A DNA stretch of 64,000 bases from a bacterium (GCA_029565675.1 JAKQNP010000008.1:124001-188000), one strand, 5' to 3'; shown: positions 43,028-50,179, numbered from the stretch's first letter. Notes: generated by a model from the letters alone, not told the origin. Numbers and translations are program-made.

Positions 43028-43056
43028 TTGCATCTTGAATGAACAAGTTGTATATT
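43028..43056 (+). promoter_or_regulatory. Sigma70-like promoter of the DprA-like/addB/addA operon
   Basis: TTGCAT (43028-43033), a 17-bp spacer and TATATT (43051-43056), 66 bases before the GTG at 43122. It is the only clear promoter upstream of the three-gene operon. Confidence 0.62.
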
Positions 43057-43121
43057 TGAATATCGCCCTGAAATTCGAGCCTACGAATCAGCCATAGCCG
43101 GAAAAAGGGGAATCGGTTTCG

Positions 43122-43853
43122 GTGGATAAACGCAGAAAGAAACAAGCACAGCCGGTTTACCAGTTGGTTCGCCCTTCGCAATTGCCCGCCCACATGCGCA
43201 CCTACTTGTCTGCTGAATGGCAACAGCGCTGGTGGACCGCAGTCGGTTCTCTTCTGCCTCTGCAACCCAAAAAACTTGCCCTCTTTTCTTCCGTTTCCTG
43301 TCCAGGAGATCTGCTGATCAAGAGCTATGATCTGGCGCAGCTGCTGCGGCGGTTCGGCGTTGCGGTGGTTAGCGGATTTCAATCACCGGTAGAAAAAGCC
43401 TGTCTCGATCTGTTGCTATGTGGCATGCAGCCGATTATCATCGTACCTGCCAAAAGTCTGAAAAATTTTCGTGTACCGCCTGCCCAGCGCCGGTCGTTGT
43501 CTTTAAACCGTTTGCTCTATTTATCACCCTTTTCGCTTGAAGAGACCCGCACCAGTGTTCGTGCCTGCCTGCGGCGCAATCAAATGGTCGCTGCTTTGGC
43601 GGAAGAGATTCTTTTTGTTCATGCATCGCCGGGCGGCAAGTCGCAGAGACTGTTCGACGAATTGATTCGCCAGGAGCGAAAAGTCCATGTGGTGCAAAGC
43701 GACTTCAATCGCCACCTGGTCGAATGCGGCGCGCAGCCCATCGAAATCGGCGAATTGGCAAATTGGCTCAGCAGCAGCGGCCTGGCTCTGAGTTTGCCGC
43801 CGACGCTTCCTGCGCCGGTCACCCCGACCGACCGACAATTCAGCCTTTTCTGA
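43122..43853 (+). CDS. DprA-like Rossmann-fold protein linked to AddAB
   Basis: 243 residues from a GTG at 43122. The central part matches the DprA/Smf Rossmann fold: LALFSSVSCPGDLLIKSYDL, then LLRRFGVAVVSGFQSPVEKA and PIIIVPAKSLKNF, equivalent to the DprA VVSG and VlgcGld blocks. The ssDNA-binding GSR motif of DprA is changed to SSVSC, and the C-terminal winged-helix domain is not evident. DprA loads RecA on incoming single-stranded DNA; this diverged copy may have another nucleotide- or DNA-binding role. It stands 40 bases before the AddB-like gene. Confidence 0.7.
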   Translation: MDKRRKKQAQPVYQLVRPSQLPAHMRTYLSAEWQQRWWTAVGSLLPLQPKKLALFSSVSCPGDLLIKSYDLAQLLRRFGVAVVSGFQSPVEKACLDLLLCGMQPIIIVPAKSLKNFRVPPAQRRSLSLNRLLYLSPFSLEETRTSVRACLRRNQMVAALAEEILFVHASPGGKSQRLFDELIRQERKVHVVQSDFNRHLVECGAQPIEIGELANWLSSSGLALSLPPTLPAPVTPTDRQFSLF

Positions 43854-43893
43854 TTTTCGTCGTCACCACACCGACCAGAAGCGGGTAAGTCCT

Positions 43894-46770
43894 ATGAAGC
43901 CGATCGATTTCCAATTCTATCCCTTCGCTGAGGCGATTGTTCCATCCGCAGTGCAAAAATACGGTCAGGATAAAGCTGTTTTGATTTTCCCAACCGAGAG
44001 CAACAAGCGTTTGGCTGTGCAGGTGCTGCAAAAGAGTTGGGATTTTGCCAATGTTCAGCTGTTGACCATGGATGAGTTCAAAGAACGCGTTTTCTATGTC
44101 GACCGACCCCTGCTAAAAGAAGAAAAACGCACCATTGCTTTTTATCTTTCGTTGAGTGATCAAGATCGCGCTTATTTCAAGATCAACAATTATTTTCAAT
44201 CCATTGAATTGGCCCGCAATTTTTTCGACTTGTGGGAAGAATTCGACGAAGAGCGGGTCGGCGATCCGGTCGACCTCGATTTTTTTCTCGCAAACGGCAT
44301 CGATCTCTCCGCCTGGCAAATCGAAACCTTTGCCCGTCTGCAGCACATACGGAAGCAGTATCGCGATTTTTTACAAAAGCGTGGTTTTATCGACCAAATC
44401 TTTGTGGCGATACCGGAATACTTTCATCCAGCTGAACTGGCCGAATACGACACGTTCGTTTTTGTCAATCAATTCTATTATTCTCGATTGGAAAAATGGA
44501 TCATCGATCAGTTTGCCATTTTGGATAAACAGATTCATGTTCTTTATCAACTGCCTTCCGCTCTGGTGGTTCGCGATCAATTGGACGTCAATCCCTTTTC
44601 TCTCCGCGATTTGTTGACCGGCCAGACTCTCCCTTCACTGCAGATTGTGTGCGCCGACGAATCCTTTTCAATGCTGACCGCTTTTTTGCAGCAGCTCAAC
44701 CAAGAGAATGTTCACACTGCGGTGGATGTCGATTTTTGGAATAAACCCTACGCCAGCTATCTCTCTGCGGAAGCGTTTAAACTCAATTCCACCGTTCCCT
44801 TTTCCCGCACCTCGATCTACCGCATTTTCACGCAATTCCATAGGCTGATGCAGGCGTTGATCTATGACGGTCATCGCGTGCTGGTGCCGATGAATGCGCT
44901 GATGGCAGCGCTGGTAGCGGATGATTTTTTTCTCTATATCTGTCGCTCTGTCGGCATAAAAGAATGCGCGACTTTGCAGGAGCGCTGTCTGCAAGTTGTG
45001 ATGCAAAAACTCGACGACCTTTTCAGGGCTGTCGAACTTGCGCCGCCTATCGCTCAGGATTTGGGTATTGACGATCCGGATGTCTCCCGCTGGCTGCAGG
45101 GTTTTTACCGCACCGTCAATGCCTTGCGCGATATTTCGACCATCGCCGCCCTGGTCGATTTGATCGACAAAAAAGACGGAATCAAGGTGCACTGGATGAT
45201 CAGGCCTGGCGATCTTTGGACAACCGATGCTCTGGAAACTTTTTATCGCATGCTCTCCGATTTTTCCGCCATCGAAACTTTTCCGCTGGTCGATTCCTGG
45301 GTCGATTTTTTTGCTGCAGGATCACGACCGGCGGCAGCTGCAGCTGAAGTCTTGCGACTTTTCCTTGACTATATGAAGGCCAAACAAGTCCATCTTTCTG
45401 AAAACAAACCAGCGAAAGCGGTTGTACGGATGACCGATTTTCTCGATACCCGCAACATGAGCTATCCTTCGGTCGCTGTGCTCAATCTGGTTGAGGGTTC
45501 CTTGCCGCATTCCCGCCGCATTCCGTTTCTTTTTACCGAACCGCAGCGAAAGCTGTTGCATCTCAAAACCTATGAAGAGATCAAATTGCGGGAAAAGTAC
45601 TATTTTTACCGGCTGTTGCTCTCTTCACCGCGCGTCTTGTTGTTTACTTGCGCCAACCAGGAACAGGATATCGAGATGAGTTCTTTTCTCGAGGAGATCC
45701 TGCTCGAGTTTCCGGCGGCAGAAAACAACTTTTTTCACCAACGAGAGAGTTGTTACAAAGCGGTTCACAGCGAAATCAGCAGACCCAGAGTTGCACGGGC
45801 GCGCTATCGACCTCCGGACAATCCGGAGTATTTTCGTTTGCGCTATCAGAATGATTTTCCTGCGCAGGAGATCCAACTTACCTACACCAAATTTAAACAG
45901 CTGAAGAACAACAGCATGGTCTATTATCTTCGGGTTGTCTGCGGTTTACAAGAGCTGCCCGTGCAGGCCGAGGAAGATTATTCTTCTCGCCTGATCGGAA
46001 TGATCGTGCACGATGCGATGAATCTGGTTTGGCGGAATGTGTTGCGCGATCAACAGAACAAACCCGTTGTGCTGCGACAAGCTGATTTGTCGGCAGCCCA
46101 ATGGCATAAAGCTTTGCAGACCGTGCTGGGCAGTTCAGACTATGATTTAAAAGTTCCGCACAACTACACAGATGTCTACTTTGCCGAGATTGTCTTGCCG
46201 ATCGTGGCGGAAAATTGCAGCCGCTTTGTCGATCATTTGACTGGGAAGTGGGGTGAACGGCCGGTGATGATCTATCCCGAGGCAGAGTGGGAAAAACGCC
46301 AGTTCAAAGAGATCCTGTCCGCAACAGAGAATGCCCTTGAATGCCGGGTTTGCATTCACGGCCGCGCCGATCTGCGCCTGGAAGAGGTGAATGGCAATGA
46401 ATTCTATATTGTCGACTATAAAACCGGAGCCTACGACGCTGATCAGCTCAATTGGTACGAAAGCTATTACTATCTTCTCGAACACCCAGAATGGTCGGAA
46501 AGAGTGGATTCGATTTTTGTCGTTTTGACCGAAAACAGCGACAGACCGGTCATCAAGAGCAACAGGCGGCAGGGATTGCGCAGCGGTCCGCAGGTGATTA
46601 AGCTGCGGCTGCAAGAGATTTTGCAGCACATTGCACAAGATGGCTTTACCGTGCCGGCGCAAAAAACCCAGGCGCGAATTTGGCAGGAGGTCACTCGAGC
46701 CGATCTTTATACTCCGAACCTGCGCCGCCAAGGCAAAAATTCGATAGATGGAGATGAGGATGTCGAATAG
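43894..46770 (+). CDS. AddB-like PD-(D/E)XK nuclease/inactivated helicase subunit
   Basis: 958 residues. The N-terminal part resembles AddB/RecB-like exonuclease subunits in its order of blocks (FPTESNKRLAVQVLQKSW, then VAVLNLVEGSLPHSRRIP at the motif for chi-scanning proteins) but has no Walker A, so it should not hydrolyse ATP. The C-terminal nuclease contains HGRADLRLEEVNGNEFYIVD with D841-Y-K843, the PD-(D/E)XK core. The four-cysteine Fe-S cluster of Bacillus AddB is not visible: the block LTYTKFKQLKNNS lacks the expected Cys-Pro. It overlaps the AddA-like gene by 11 bases. Together they should form a helicase-nuclease that processes double-strand breaks. Confidence 0.82.
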   Translation: MKPIDFQFYPFAEAIVPSAVQKYGQDKAVLIFPTESNKRLAVQVLQKSWDFANVQLLTMDEFKERVFYVDRPLLKEEKRTIAFYLSLSDQDRAYFKINNYFQSIELARNFFDLWEEFDEERVGDPVDLDFFLANGIDLSAWQIETFARLQHIRKQYRDFLQKRGFIDQIFVAIPEYFHPAELAEYDTFVFVNQFYYSRLEKWIIDQFAILDKQIHVLYQLPSALVVRDQLDVNPFSLRDLLTGQTLPSLQIVCADESFSMLTAFLQQLNQENVHTAVDVDFWNKPYASYLSAEAFKLNSTVPFSRTSIYRIFTQFHRLMQALIYDGHRVLVPMNALMAALVADDFFLYICRSVGIKECATLQERCLQVVMQKLDDLFRAVELAPPIAQDLGIDDPDVSRWLQGFYRTVNALRDISTIAALVDLIDKKDGIKVHWMIRPGDLWTTDALETFYRMLSDFSAIETFPLVDSWVDFFAAGSRPAAAAAEVLRLFLDYMKAKQVHLSENKPAKAVVRMTDFLDTRNMSYPSVAVLNLVEGSLPHSRRIPFLFTEPQRKLLHLKTYEEIKLREKYYFYRLLLSSPRVLLFTCANQEQDIEMSSFLEEILLEFPAAENNFFHQRESCYKAVHSEISRPRVARARYRPPDNPEYFRLRYQNDFPAQEIQLTYTKFKQLKNNSMVYYLRVVCGLQELPVQAEEDYSSRLIGMIVHDAMNLVWRNVLRDQQNKPVVLRQADLSAAQWHKALQTVLGSSDYDLKVPHNYTDVYFAEIVLPIVAENCSRFVDHLTGKWGERPVMIYPEAEWEKRQFKEILSATENALECRVCIHGRADLRLEEVNGNEFYIVDYKTGAYDADQLNWYESYYYLLEHPEWSERVDSIFVVLTENSDRPVIKSNRRQGLRSGPQVIKLRLQEILQHIAQDGFTVPAQKTQARIWQEVTRADLYTPNLRRQGKNSIDGDEDVE

Positions 46771-49700
46771 CGTCAAAAAGGTCATCCGCGCCAGCGCCGG
46801 CACGGGTAAAACTTATCGCCTTTCTCTCGAATATATTGCCCTCCTTTTGCGGTTTCGCCGTCTGGGCATCCAGTTCAATGAAATTTTGGTGATTACCTTT
46901 ACCAAAAAGGCGACGGCAGAAATACGCGACCGCATTTTTGCCCACTTGAAATCGCTGACGCAAAACTCCGACAGCCAAGCGGCGCAAGCGCTGCATCAGA
47001 ACCTGCTCGCTTTTGGCATTCAACTGGCTGATTTCGATATAGACTATTTGCAGACGATTTATCGCGAAATGCTGAAGAACAAGGATCGCGTGCAGATCAG
47101 CACGATCGATTCCTTTACCAACACGATTTTTCACTCCATGATCGCCCCGGTAATGGGTATGACCCATTACGAAATCGATGAGGAGATCCGTCAGCAAAAC
47201 CTGTCGGAAATCAGCGAGTATTTGTTGCGCGACCCAAGCCATTTGGCGCTGATCAAGAAATTTTTGCAGCAAGGTGCACAACGCAATATCCAGGCCTATG
47301 AAAAATTGATCCATTCGATCATCGACAAGCGATGGATTTTTCATTTCATCGACGATGCCGGCATTCGGCGGAGCGATGGAAGGATCGCCGCCACCGAACT
47401 GGATAAAATGTATGATTTTTTTTCAGCCACCTATTTGCAGATCATCGATCGCCTGGTGCAATACCTGCATGAAGAACAGAATGATTCACCCGCCGGGGCG
47501 CTGTTGACGGCCGATTTTTATGCGCTTTTGCAAAATCGAACCGGCGATGTGCAAGAGTGCTTGCAGGCATTCAAACAAATGGTGCAGGATCCGCAAACCG
47601 CGCAGCCGTTTTTCAATTTGGTGTTGGCGAAAAGAACTTTTTGGCACGGCGGCAGGTTGCTGCGCAAAAAGAAAGATGCTGAACTCAAGGAGGAACTGAT
47701 CCAAAAGATTGCCAAGGCTGCCGGGGATCTGGGCGATTATCTGCTCTTCAGCTGTGTTTTTCCGGAACAAGAGATCCTTTTTGAGTTGGCCGATCGGGTT
47801 CTGGCCAAATACGACGAGATCAAGACGCGAGACAGAATTTTCACCCATTCCGATATCTCCTATTATACCTTTCGCCACCTCTATGATCCCGAATTGTCGT
47901 TGATCGATCAAGACAGGGTGACCAACTCTTTCTATGAGTATCTGACCAACCGTATTCGCTTTGTGCTGATCGATGAGTTTCAGGATACCAGTGTCTTGCA
48001 GCTCAAGATACTTCAACCGATCATCAATGAAGTGACCAGCGGTATAGGGGCGAGACCGTATGGGGGCGCGATCGTTGTCGGCGATGAAAAACAATCGATC
48101 TATGAATGGCGCGGCGGAGAGCGAGACCTGTTGCTGCGGATGCCGGCGATTTTGCAGTCAGATGAGGTGTCATCTCTGGATACGAGTTTTCGCAGTTCTT
48201 TTATGCTGATCGACTTTTTCAACCAACTTTTTTCTGATGCGGTCTTTCACGAACAGCTCAATCAGCGCGGCATTGAATGGCAATATCAGCAGATAAAAGC
48301 TTTTCGCCAGAATGATCCAGGATCAGCGGAAGTGCATCTGCGTGGATTTGGCAAAGCGGCCGAACAGGTTTCCAAACACGAAGTGTTGCACGAATATGTG
48401 CAAAAAGTGGTTTTGCCCAAAGTAACCGACCCAAGGGTCGCCGGCAACACGGCTATTTTGACGCGCAAGAACAGCGACTTGCAGGAAATTGCCGCCATTC
48501 TCGATGAAGAGCGCATCGATTATGTCCTCGATTCCTCCAAGTCGATTTTGGAGCACAGGATGATCCGCCCGCTTCTCCACCTCTTCCGCTTTCTCGTCTA
48601 TCGCCAGATGATCGACCTGTTGCGGTTCTTGCGTTCAGATGCAGTGCTGTTGGACAGCGATTCGCTCAAGGCGCTGTCGATCGCATATCGCGATTGGCAA
48701 AGCCAAGGACAGCCTGAATGTTGGATCGATTTTCTGCGCAGTGTTGCAGGGATACCGTTTATCTCAATTGTGCTGCAGATTGTTGAAGAATCTGTTGCTG
48801 TCCTCGATATCAGCGATCGCAGCGCCAGAGCCCCACAAGTCGGCAGCCGCACGGTGCTCAGCTTTGTCCACACTGTGATCGAACAGTTGGCGATGATTGC
48901 CTTGTTTGATCAGGAAAACGATATAAAAAATCTACATGCCTTTCTGGAACGGATCGCCGCTTTTGAACAACGAACAGGCGATTATGATCCGAATCTGGAA
49001 GGTTTTTTGCACTATTGCGAGGAGAACAAAAAACACCGGGAATTCGCGCAACAAGGTCTCGAGTCGGTGCAGATGGTGCAGTTGATGACCATTCACAAGG
49101 CCAAGGGACTCGAGTTCGACAATGTTTTTCTTTATCTCGATCTCTCTTCCCACGCCGGTTCAGATTATGGCCGCCTGCAGAGTTATTTGATTTACGATCA
49201 ACAATACAGGGGCGTGCAGGATTATCTGCTGACCTACCACTATGATGCGATTGTGCAGAATAGCATGAAGCGAACATTGGTTGAGGAAAGCGAAAGGCGC
49301 GGTCAAATCGAATCGTTGAACGCATTGTATGTGGCGATGACTCGGGCTCGTTTTAATCTGGTGGTGCTGGCGGCAGTCGACAGCAACAATTTAGCCGATT
49401 GGCTGCAGACGGAGGATGACGAGAAAAAGATCGAACGGTTGTTGTTGCGCCGTTTGGCTGCTCTTTTACTGGAACAGGATGCAGTGACCTGGGAAAGCGA
49501 CTCATATCTGCGCGGCCAGCTGGGCGAATATACTTTTGCTGCCGTGGAGAAGCCAACCGAGACCGTTGCGGCACCGTCCGCCGCTCCGAATATCGCCCGT
49601 TATATCGATTTTGATCGCCATCGATTGCGATCAGCGGTCACGGCGAAATTTGATTATGACAAGTATCCGGACTATCACACTGCCGCCCGGATCAACATCA

Positions 49701-50131
49701 ACGCCATAAAAGGCAACGTCATCCACTACTATCTTTCGTTTGTTCGCCATGACAGCGAACCAATTCGCCGGTGGGCGGCAGGCCGCACCTTTGCCTACTA
49801 TGGGAATTTGCTGCCAAAGCAGGAAATCGATCTTCTTGTCGCACGCGCAAACCATCTGATCGATGCGAATAACGATCTGTTTTCGATCGCACAATGGCCG
49901 CAGGTGTTCACGGAATGGGCGATGATCGATCCTGAGGGTCGGGAAGTCCGCCTCGATCGCTTGATGGTGAACCCCGATCACAAAGAGGTCTTGATCGTCG
50001 ATTTTAAAACCGGGGAGGCATACGAGGAGGAGCAAATCGGGCACTATGTGGAGACAGTGCGGGCGCTCGATTTTGTGCAGCAAAACGGCTATATTTGTAG
50101 AGGCAGATTTGTCGAGGTGGGTGAGATCTGA
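46760..50131 (+). CDS. addA: AddA-like UvrD-family helicase-nuclease
   Basis: 1123 residues from the ATG at 46760, which follows GAGATGAGG; it overlaps the AddB-like gene. Helicase motifs are complete: Walker A ASAGTGKT (11-18), ITFTKKATAEIRDRI, Walker B VLIDEFQDTS, VVGDEKQSIYEWRGGERDL, DTSFRSS, LMTIHKAKGLEFDNVFLYLD and YVAMTRARF. The C-terminal nuclease has D1081-F-K1083 in VLIVDFKTGEAY. Such enzymes unwind and degrade DNA from breaks, making 3' ends for RecA. It pairs with the AddB-like protein and the DprA-like protein. A bidirectional terminator follows. The alternative name RecB-like is possible. Confidence 0.9.
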   Translation: MSNSVKKVIRASAGTGKTYRLSLEYIALLLRFRRLGIQFNEILVITFTKKATAEIRDRIFAHLKSLTQNSDSQAAQALHQNLLAFGIQLADFDIDYLQTIYREMLKNKDRVQISTIDSFTNTIFHSMIAPVMGMTHYEIDEEIRQQNLSEISEYLLRDPSHLALIKKFLQQGAQRNIQAYEKLIHSIIDKRWIFHFIDDAGIRRSDGRIAATELDKMYDFFSATYLQIIDRLVQYLHEEQNDSPAGALLTADFYALLQNRTGDVQECLQAFKQMVQDPQTAQPFFNLVLAKRTFWHGGRLLRKKKDAELKEELIQKIAKAAGDLGDYLLFSCVFPEQEILFELADRVLAKYDEIKTRDRIFTHSDISYYTFRHLYDPELSLIDQDRVTNSFYEYLTNRIRFVLIDEFQDTSVLQLKILQPIINEVTSGIGARPYGGAIVVGDEKQSIYEWRGGERDLLLRMPAILQSDEVSSLDTSFRSSFMLIDFFNQLFSDAVFHEQLNQRGIEWQYQQIKAFRQNDPGSAEVHLRGFGKAAEQVSKHEVLHEYVQKVVLPKVTDPRVAGNTAILTRKNSDLQEIAAILDEERIDYVLDSSKSILEHRMIRPLLHLFRFLVYRQMIDLLRFLRSDAVLLDSDSLKALSIAYRDWQSQGQPECWIDFLRSVAGIPFISIVLQIVEESVAVLDISDRSARAPQVGSRTVLSFVHTVIEQLAMIALFDQENDIKNLHAFLERIAAFEQRTGDYDPNLEGFLHYCEENKKHREFAQQGLESVQMVQLMTIHKAKGLEFDNVFLYLDLSSHAGSDYGRLQSYLIYDQQYRGVQDYLLTYHYDAIVQNSMKRTLVEESERRGQIESLNALYVAMTRARFNLVVLAAVDSNNLADWLQTEDDEKKIERLLLRRLAALLLEQDAVTWESDSYLRGQLGEYTFAAVEKPTETVAAPSAAPNIARYIDFDRHRLRSAVTAKFDYDKYPDYHTAARININAIKGNVIHYYLSFVRHDSEPIRRWAAGRTFAYYGNLLPKQEIDLLVARANHLIDANNDLFSIAQWPQVFTEWAMIDPEGREVRLDRLMVNPDHKEVLIVDFKTGEAYEEEQIGHYVETVRALDFVQQNGYICRGRFVEVGEI

Positions 50132-50168
50132 AAAAAACAAGCCGGATGCTTACTCTGCATCCGGCTTG
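50131..50168. terminator. Convergent terminator between addA and the RND transporter operon
   Basis: CAAGCCGGATGC (50138-50149) pairs perfectly with 50157-50168 around TTACTCT. Seven A at 50131-50137 supply the U tract for minus-strand transcripts, so it is a good terminator of the efflux operon; it should also stop plus-strand reading less efficiently. Confidence 0.85.
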
Positions 50169-50179
50169 CGCAGTACGGA

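Follow-up and report, generated by a model that had tools for sequence, protein, structure and literature searches.

The stretch of DNA considered here, 64,000 nucleotides from a bacterium and called the window in what follows, is part of contig C56 of genome G000 (4.43 Mb, 95% complete). It encodes a DprA-like protein of 243 residues, given the name DprL in this work (gene dprL), just ahead of the two subunits of an AddAB-type helicase-nuclease, which raises the question whether DprL is a partner of AddAB, and in what capacity, or simply a neighbour. The genes of this trio and the element that follows them are:

43122-43853, + strand: dprL, 243 aa, with a GTG start
43894-46770, + strand: addB-like gene, 958 aa, PD-(D/E)XK nuclease subunit
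46748-50131, + strand: addA-like gene, 1127 aa, UvrD-type helicase with a C-terminal nuclease motif
50137-50169, no strand assigned: terminator-like stem of 13 bp, between addA and a convergent RND efflux gene

The gap between dprL and addB is 40 nt long (43854-43893), and addB and addA overlap by 23 nt (about 11 nt should the true addA start be its second ATG, at MSNSVKK), so that the ORF coordinates bear out the arrangement described in the initial annotation of this DNA. Position 43028, from which that annotation had the unit begin, is not a gene start, and the single promoter that it proposed for the three genes found no backing, since promoter-like sites occur in the region at chance level (6 seen against 5.9 expected) and none was detected upstream of dprL. 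Secreted-protein and efflux genes flank the trio. The explanation favoured here, and put forward tentatively, is that DprL is an accessory of AddAB that would bind DNA and, in the genus of the window, dock on the sliding clamp.

A genome-wide search located a full-length canonical dprA on the same contig (C56:8624-9721, 365 aa; match at C56:8876-9493, 265 bits), which rules out DprL as the sole dprA of this organism and makes it a second, divergent protein. Its relation to DprA is weak by sequence, with 25.1 bits against PF02481 in the profile search (cut-off 29.6) and 19.8 bits against TIGR00732 (cut-off 191.15), and clear by predicted fold: an AlphaFold2 model calculated from 36 family members reached a pLDDT of 92.1 and a pTM of 0.87, and the first 14 matches in a Foldseek search of the PDB were all DprA or ShosA, with TM up to 0.71. 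The best PADLOC match was PsyrA (48.7 bits). DprL has the Rossmann fold and an invariant RN in common with DprA/Smf, and its size is close to that of the solved H. pylori DprA structure, a bare Rossmann core. It differs from DprA/Smf in scoring below both curated cut-offs, in the replacement of the GSR and GID motifs, in its separate clade and in its operon with addBA; moreover, neither a winged helix nor an N-terminal SAM/HHH domain was found in DprL, whereas the genome's own DprA has them. The altered GSR motif reported initially was confirmed. The sites concerned, together with the end of the protein, are:

43287-43295, + strand: S-S-V, residues 56-58, at the position of the canonical GSR
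43371-43394, + strand: SGFQSPVE, residues 84-91, in place of the canonical SGxAxGID; E91 is invariant in the family
43575-43580, + strand: R152-N153, invariant, equivalent to the RN of canonical DprA
43836-43850, + strand: C-terminal QFSLF, end of a disordered tail, fitting the beta-clamp consensus QxxLF

Written as a consensus, the replacement of the canonical GxxxGID reads SGF[HQ]SPxE, and the GSR arginine is absent from all four DprLs linked to AddAB. In H. pylori DprA this arginine takes part in ssDNA binding, so that DNA binding of the DprA kind may be reduced in DprL. The DprA fold is also common to DprL and ShosA, the antitoxin of ShosTA (8zva, a Foldseek match); however, it is the genome's canonical DprA that scores 232 bits against ShosA and DprL only 11, and the DprL locus has no PRTase gene.

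These features bear on the possibility that DprL is a RecA mediator, helping RecA to displace SSB and to load on the single strands made by AddAB. AddAB makes ssDNA, the substrate for RecA loading, and DprL has the DprA fold. RecA is an interaction partner of canonical DprA, which loads it on ssDNA (PMC12386762). Such a role is nonetheless unlikely for a protein that has lost the GSR arginine in every AddAB-linked member as well as the two flanking domains, in a genome that already has a full canonical DprA, and whose relatives occur in restriction-like operons, where RecA loading would have no clear use.

The helicase motifs of AddA and the nuclease motif of AddB are intact; AddA has Walker A (ASAGTGKT), LDRL and DFKTG, and AddB has GRADL and DYKTG (residues 823-845) in its nuclease motif. 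As in AddAB/RexAB, AddA joins a UvrD-type helicase to a nuclease motif, AddB carries a nuclease motif, the genes overlap, and AddA is present in one full-length copy, the other match in the genome being a UvrD-like protein. They differ from the known enzyme in scoring below the NCBIfam equivalog cut-offs and in the upstream DprL gene, which is not a known AddAB component. AddAB also occurs outside the family: most genomes of the order carry it, as do some of the class, with identities of about 40%. The gene preceding addB (in one broken locus, the gene preceding addA) could be read at 13 of these outside loci, and dprL adjoins AddAB at none of them. AddAB is thus an inherited, ordinary housekeeping resection enzyme of the order, and the simplest account is that one family added dprL to it.

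Within that family the order dprL-addB-addA is kept in the four genomes examined (three genera), with dprL-addB spacings of 40, 20, 35 and -4 nt, although the identity of DprL to the window protein falls to 33% (33-39% across the three genera) and the gene upstream of dprL has changed in one of them (G002). The conservation for which the initial annotation proposed a check therefore extends to three genera of one family and not across FCB genomes. Between G000 and its congener G001 identities are 58% for DprL, 54% for AddB and 60% for AddA, with dN of 0.34, 0.38 and 0.33, respectively, and saturated dS; DprL evolves at about the same rate as the two subunits. Trees of AddA and AddB did not group the sequences of the family into one clade and neither confirm nor exclude one history for the operon. 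The AddA and AddB of the family have no diagnostic residues, and family-specific docking insertions were discarded except for a shared 3-column insertion in AddA, a possible mark of contact with DprL.

The relatives of DprL have a different usual place, as the third gene after an HKD(PLD)-SNF2 helicase and an Eco57I-type methylase/nuclease. One or both of these genes lie on the same strand as DprL in 18 of 29 other loci, four viral contigs included, and DprL is often 3 nt away or overlaps by 4 nt; the loci that show this as the most frequent arrangement come from family f4, a second copy in G004, the class to which the Desulfobacterales MAG L004 belongs, and viral contigs. Elsewhere DprL precedes an HsdR-like gene (viral contig L155), follows genes for a UvrD-type helicase and a YhcG nuclease (L004) or, in every genome of family f2 (loci L020-L025), adjoins LptF/LptG or ferritin; in two of the f2 genomes MutY accompanies LptF/LptG beside DprL. 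A scan of the genome collection matched only L003, from a candidate division KSB1 MAG that is the nearest named relative of G000, and L004, and a tblastn search of plasmids and phages found no DprL relative.

The operon made of an HKD(PLD)-SNF2 gene, an Eco57I/type IIG methylase-nuclease gene and a small DprA-like gene (L128, L130, L131, L133, L146, L026, L027, and viral contigs L151-L154) is in itself a candidate for a defence system of the restriction-like type, its third component having the DprA fold. Downstream of its HKD-SNF2 and Eco57I genes, L027 carries a pair of DarT/DarG-type appearance (with a macro-domain gene) and an FRG-domain gene, which DprL adjoins (L027:8876-12373). A similar gene pair, HKD helicase and N6-methylase, characterizes the Type-2 BREX-related systems, other parts of which include DUF499 and DUF3780; no DprA is mentioned for them, in contrast to the operons described here (PMC12839542). 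Such a system is absent from the AddAB-linked genomes, and no HKD-SNF2 helicase of the DprL-operon type was found in any of the four; DprL there does not serve one, and service in trans is ruled out for these genomes.

A tree of 44 proteins unites the 36 DprLs in a single clade (100/100), with canonical DprA and the two PsyrA sequences outside it. Inside this clade the four AddAB-linked DprLs group together (96/92), so that recruitment to addBA probably happened once. Their restriction-linked sister group is weakly supported (81/52) and long branches meet in the tree, which leaves the deep forks unsure; perhaps DprL was recruited from a restriction-type operon.

PsyrA/RqlI, partner of the RecQ-like PsyrT/RqlH, resembles DprL in its DprA fold and in sharing an operon with a helicase, and in two members of the phylum it has a clamp-like QxxLF end as in the window protein. 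However, PsyrA is 335-473 aa long and accompanies a RecQ-PRTase, whereas DprL has about 150-255 aa and accompanies HKD-SNF2 or AddAB, and it falls outside PsyrA in the tree; identification of DprL as a PsyrA was rejected on these grounds of partner (addB here), length and clade. Pairs of a RecQ helicase and a DprA-like protein were seen in L102, L103 and L156-L158, of which L158 (NZ_OX030731.1) has the pair between hsdS and hsdR of a type I restriction locus and L156 (NZ_CP090068.1) between pglX and pglZ of a BREX-1 locus.

RqlI, through a DprA-like region, constrains the helicase RqlH (PMC4670107), and several systems use a DprA homologue as their antitoxin (PMC9122126). By analogy DprL, the product of the first gene of the trio, might keep AddAB off the cell's own DNA. 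This is rather improbable: the toxicity of RqlH sits in a PRTase domain, which the trio does not have, and the AddAB of sister families runs without a linked DprL, so that restraint is not generally needed.

A further reading, also improbable, takes DprL as co-transcribed with addBA and working elsewhere, as its f2 relatives seem to do. All f2 genomes keep DprL in unrelated neighbourhoods and the link to AddAB is seen in a single family, but coincidence fits poorly with an order retained over three genera, where identity is 33-39%, the genes stay close together and the flanks have changed in G002.

The initial annotation had suggested a unit for DNA-end processing or DNA-entry control, possibly with a part in phage defence. 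The separate dprA and the order conserved over three genera make end processing plausible, whereas entry control has no specific support, ComEC being present in the genome but unlinked to the trio. Phage defence or entry control is the least supported reading of the trio and very improbable: DprL relatives do occur in restriction-like operons and on viral contigs, and DprA-like proteins in defence systems (PMC9122126), but AddAB is the housekeeping enzyme of the order rather than an island gene, the flanks code for secreted and efflux proteins, and the HKD-SNF2 partner is missing from the AddAB-linked genomes.

For DprL as an accessory of AddAB, the C-terminus offers a possible mode of action. 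The model is disordered after about residue 220 (tail pLDDT 49-57), and the window protein ends in this accessible tail with QFSLF as its last five residues. The beta-clamp-binding consensus is QL[S/D]LF or QxxLF, QMGLF being the clamp motif of B. subtilis DnaE (PMC12309361), and C-termini are a frequent site of such motifs (PMC4549789). The DprL of G001 ends in QICLF, keeping Q and LF in a tail that has otherwise diverged; that of G003 ends in PMGLFA (PMGLF, without the Q) and that of G002 has only LPGFF, so within the family the canonical motif, as read from these sequences, is limited to the two congeners. The pattern Q..[LMI]F within the last 12 residues was found in 5 of 379 distinct ORFs of at least 200 aa across the loci examined, and all five are DprA-like: two AddAB-linked DprLs, two PsyrAs and one other DprL, a doubtful case. 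In this last (L133) the relatives of the QAKLF near the end read WAxLF, which is likely a C-terminal helix and probably no clamp motif. The two PsyrAs of the phylum (L102:6056-7153 and L103:5386-6390) end in QADLFV and QMGLF, and motif-like peptides also occur in linkers or tails of the PsyrAs of L156-L158, which come from E. coli (QPELF, QMGDLF), Nostoc (QLSLL, as the terminal residues) and Acinetobacter (TLDMF). A limited literature search found no report of a clamp motif in DprA-like proteins.

The proposed course of events begins with a subfamily of minimal DprA-fold proteins whose usual partners are an HKD-SNF2 helicase and an Eco57I-type methylase/nuclease; one member of this subfamily would have been placed once, in one KSB1-type family, ahead of the housekeeping addBA. 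There DprL most likely binds DNA, as single strands or ends, that AddAB makes or approaches, and regulates or positions AddAB. In the genus of the window its disordered tail, ending in a clamp-binding motif, probably tethers AddAB to the sliding clamp, which would direct resection to replication-linked breaks. The fold, the conserved gene order, the one full-length AddA, the distinct dprA, the clade and the tail motif are observed, whereas contact with AddAB, DNA binding, clamp binding and the direction of regulation are what we infer. In favour of this reading are the order and tight spacing in four of four genomes despite changed upstream neighbours in G002, with a sequence constraint like that of the neighbouring genes; the single clade of AddAB-linked DprLs, the one full-length AddA and the tail motif; the position of other DprLs beside helicase-nuclease genes, together with AddAB-linked genomes devoid of the HKD-SNF2 helicase; and the precedent of RqlI/RqlH, in which a DprA-like protein holds back its helicase (PMC4670107). 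On the other side, the AddAB linkage is limited to one family and four genomes, AddA and AddB show no diagnostic residues and do not unite the family in their trees, the motif is canonical in two congeners only, and the GSR arginine is lost.

The DprA fold, AddAB and pairs of DprA-like proteins with helicases (RqlHI, PsyrTA) are already known. A limited literature search found no description of the DprL subfamily, its placement with HKD-SNF2 and Eco57I genes, the operon with AddAB or the clamp-like tail. A broader proposal, itself doubtful, is that minimal DprA-fold proteins, several of them clamp-tailed, are general and swappable accessories of ATP-driven helicase-nucleases that act on DNA (SNF2-type restriction enzymes, RecQ-PRTase, type I restriction and AddAB), and that one of them has turned, in the family described here, into a third component dedicated to AddAB, coupling resection to the clamp. 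Both AddAB and RecBCD are taken to be complete in themselves, and DprL, if this is true, would be a recruitment or control subunit. The DprA-like proteins of defence systems have so far been poorly explained, and the adaptor idea, which is directly testable, would unite PsyrA, ShosA and DprL as DprA-fold adaptors for DNA helicase-nucleases.
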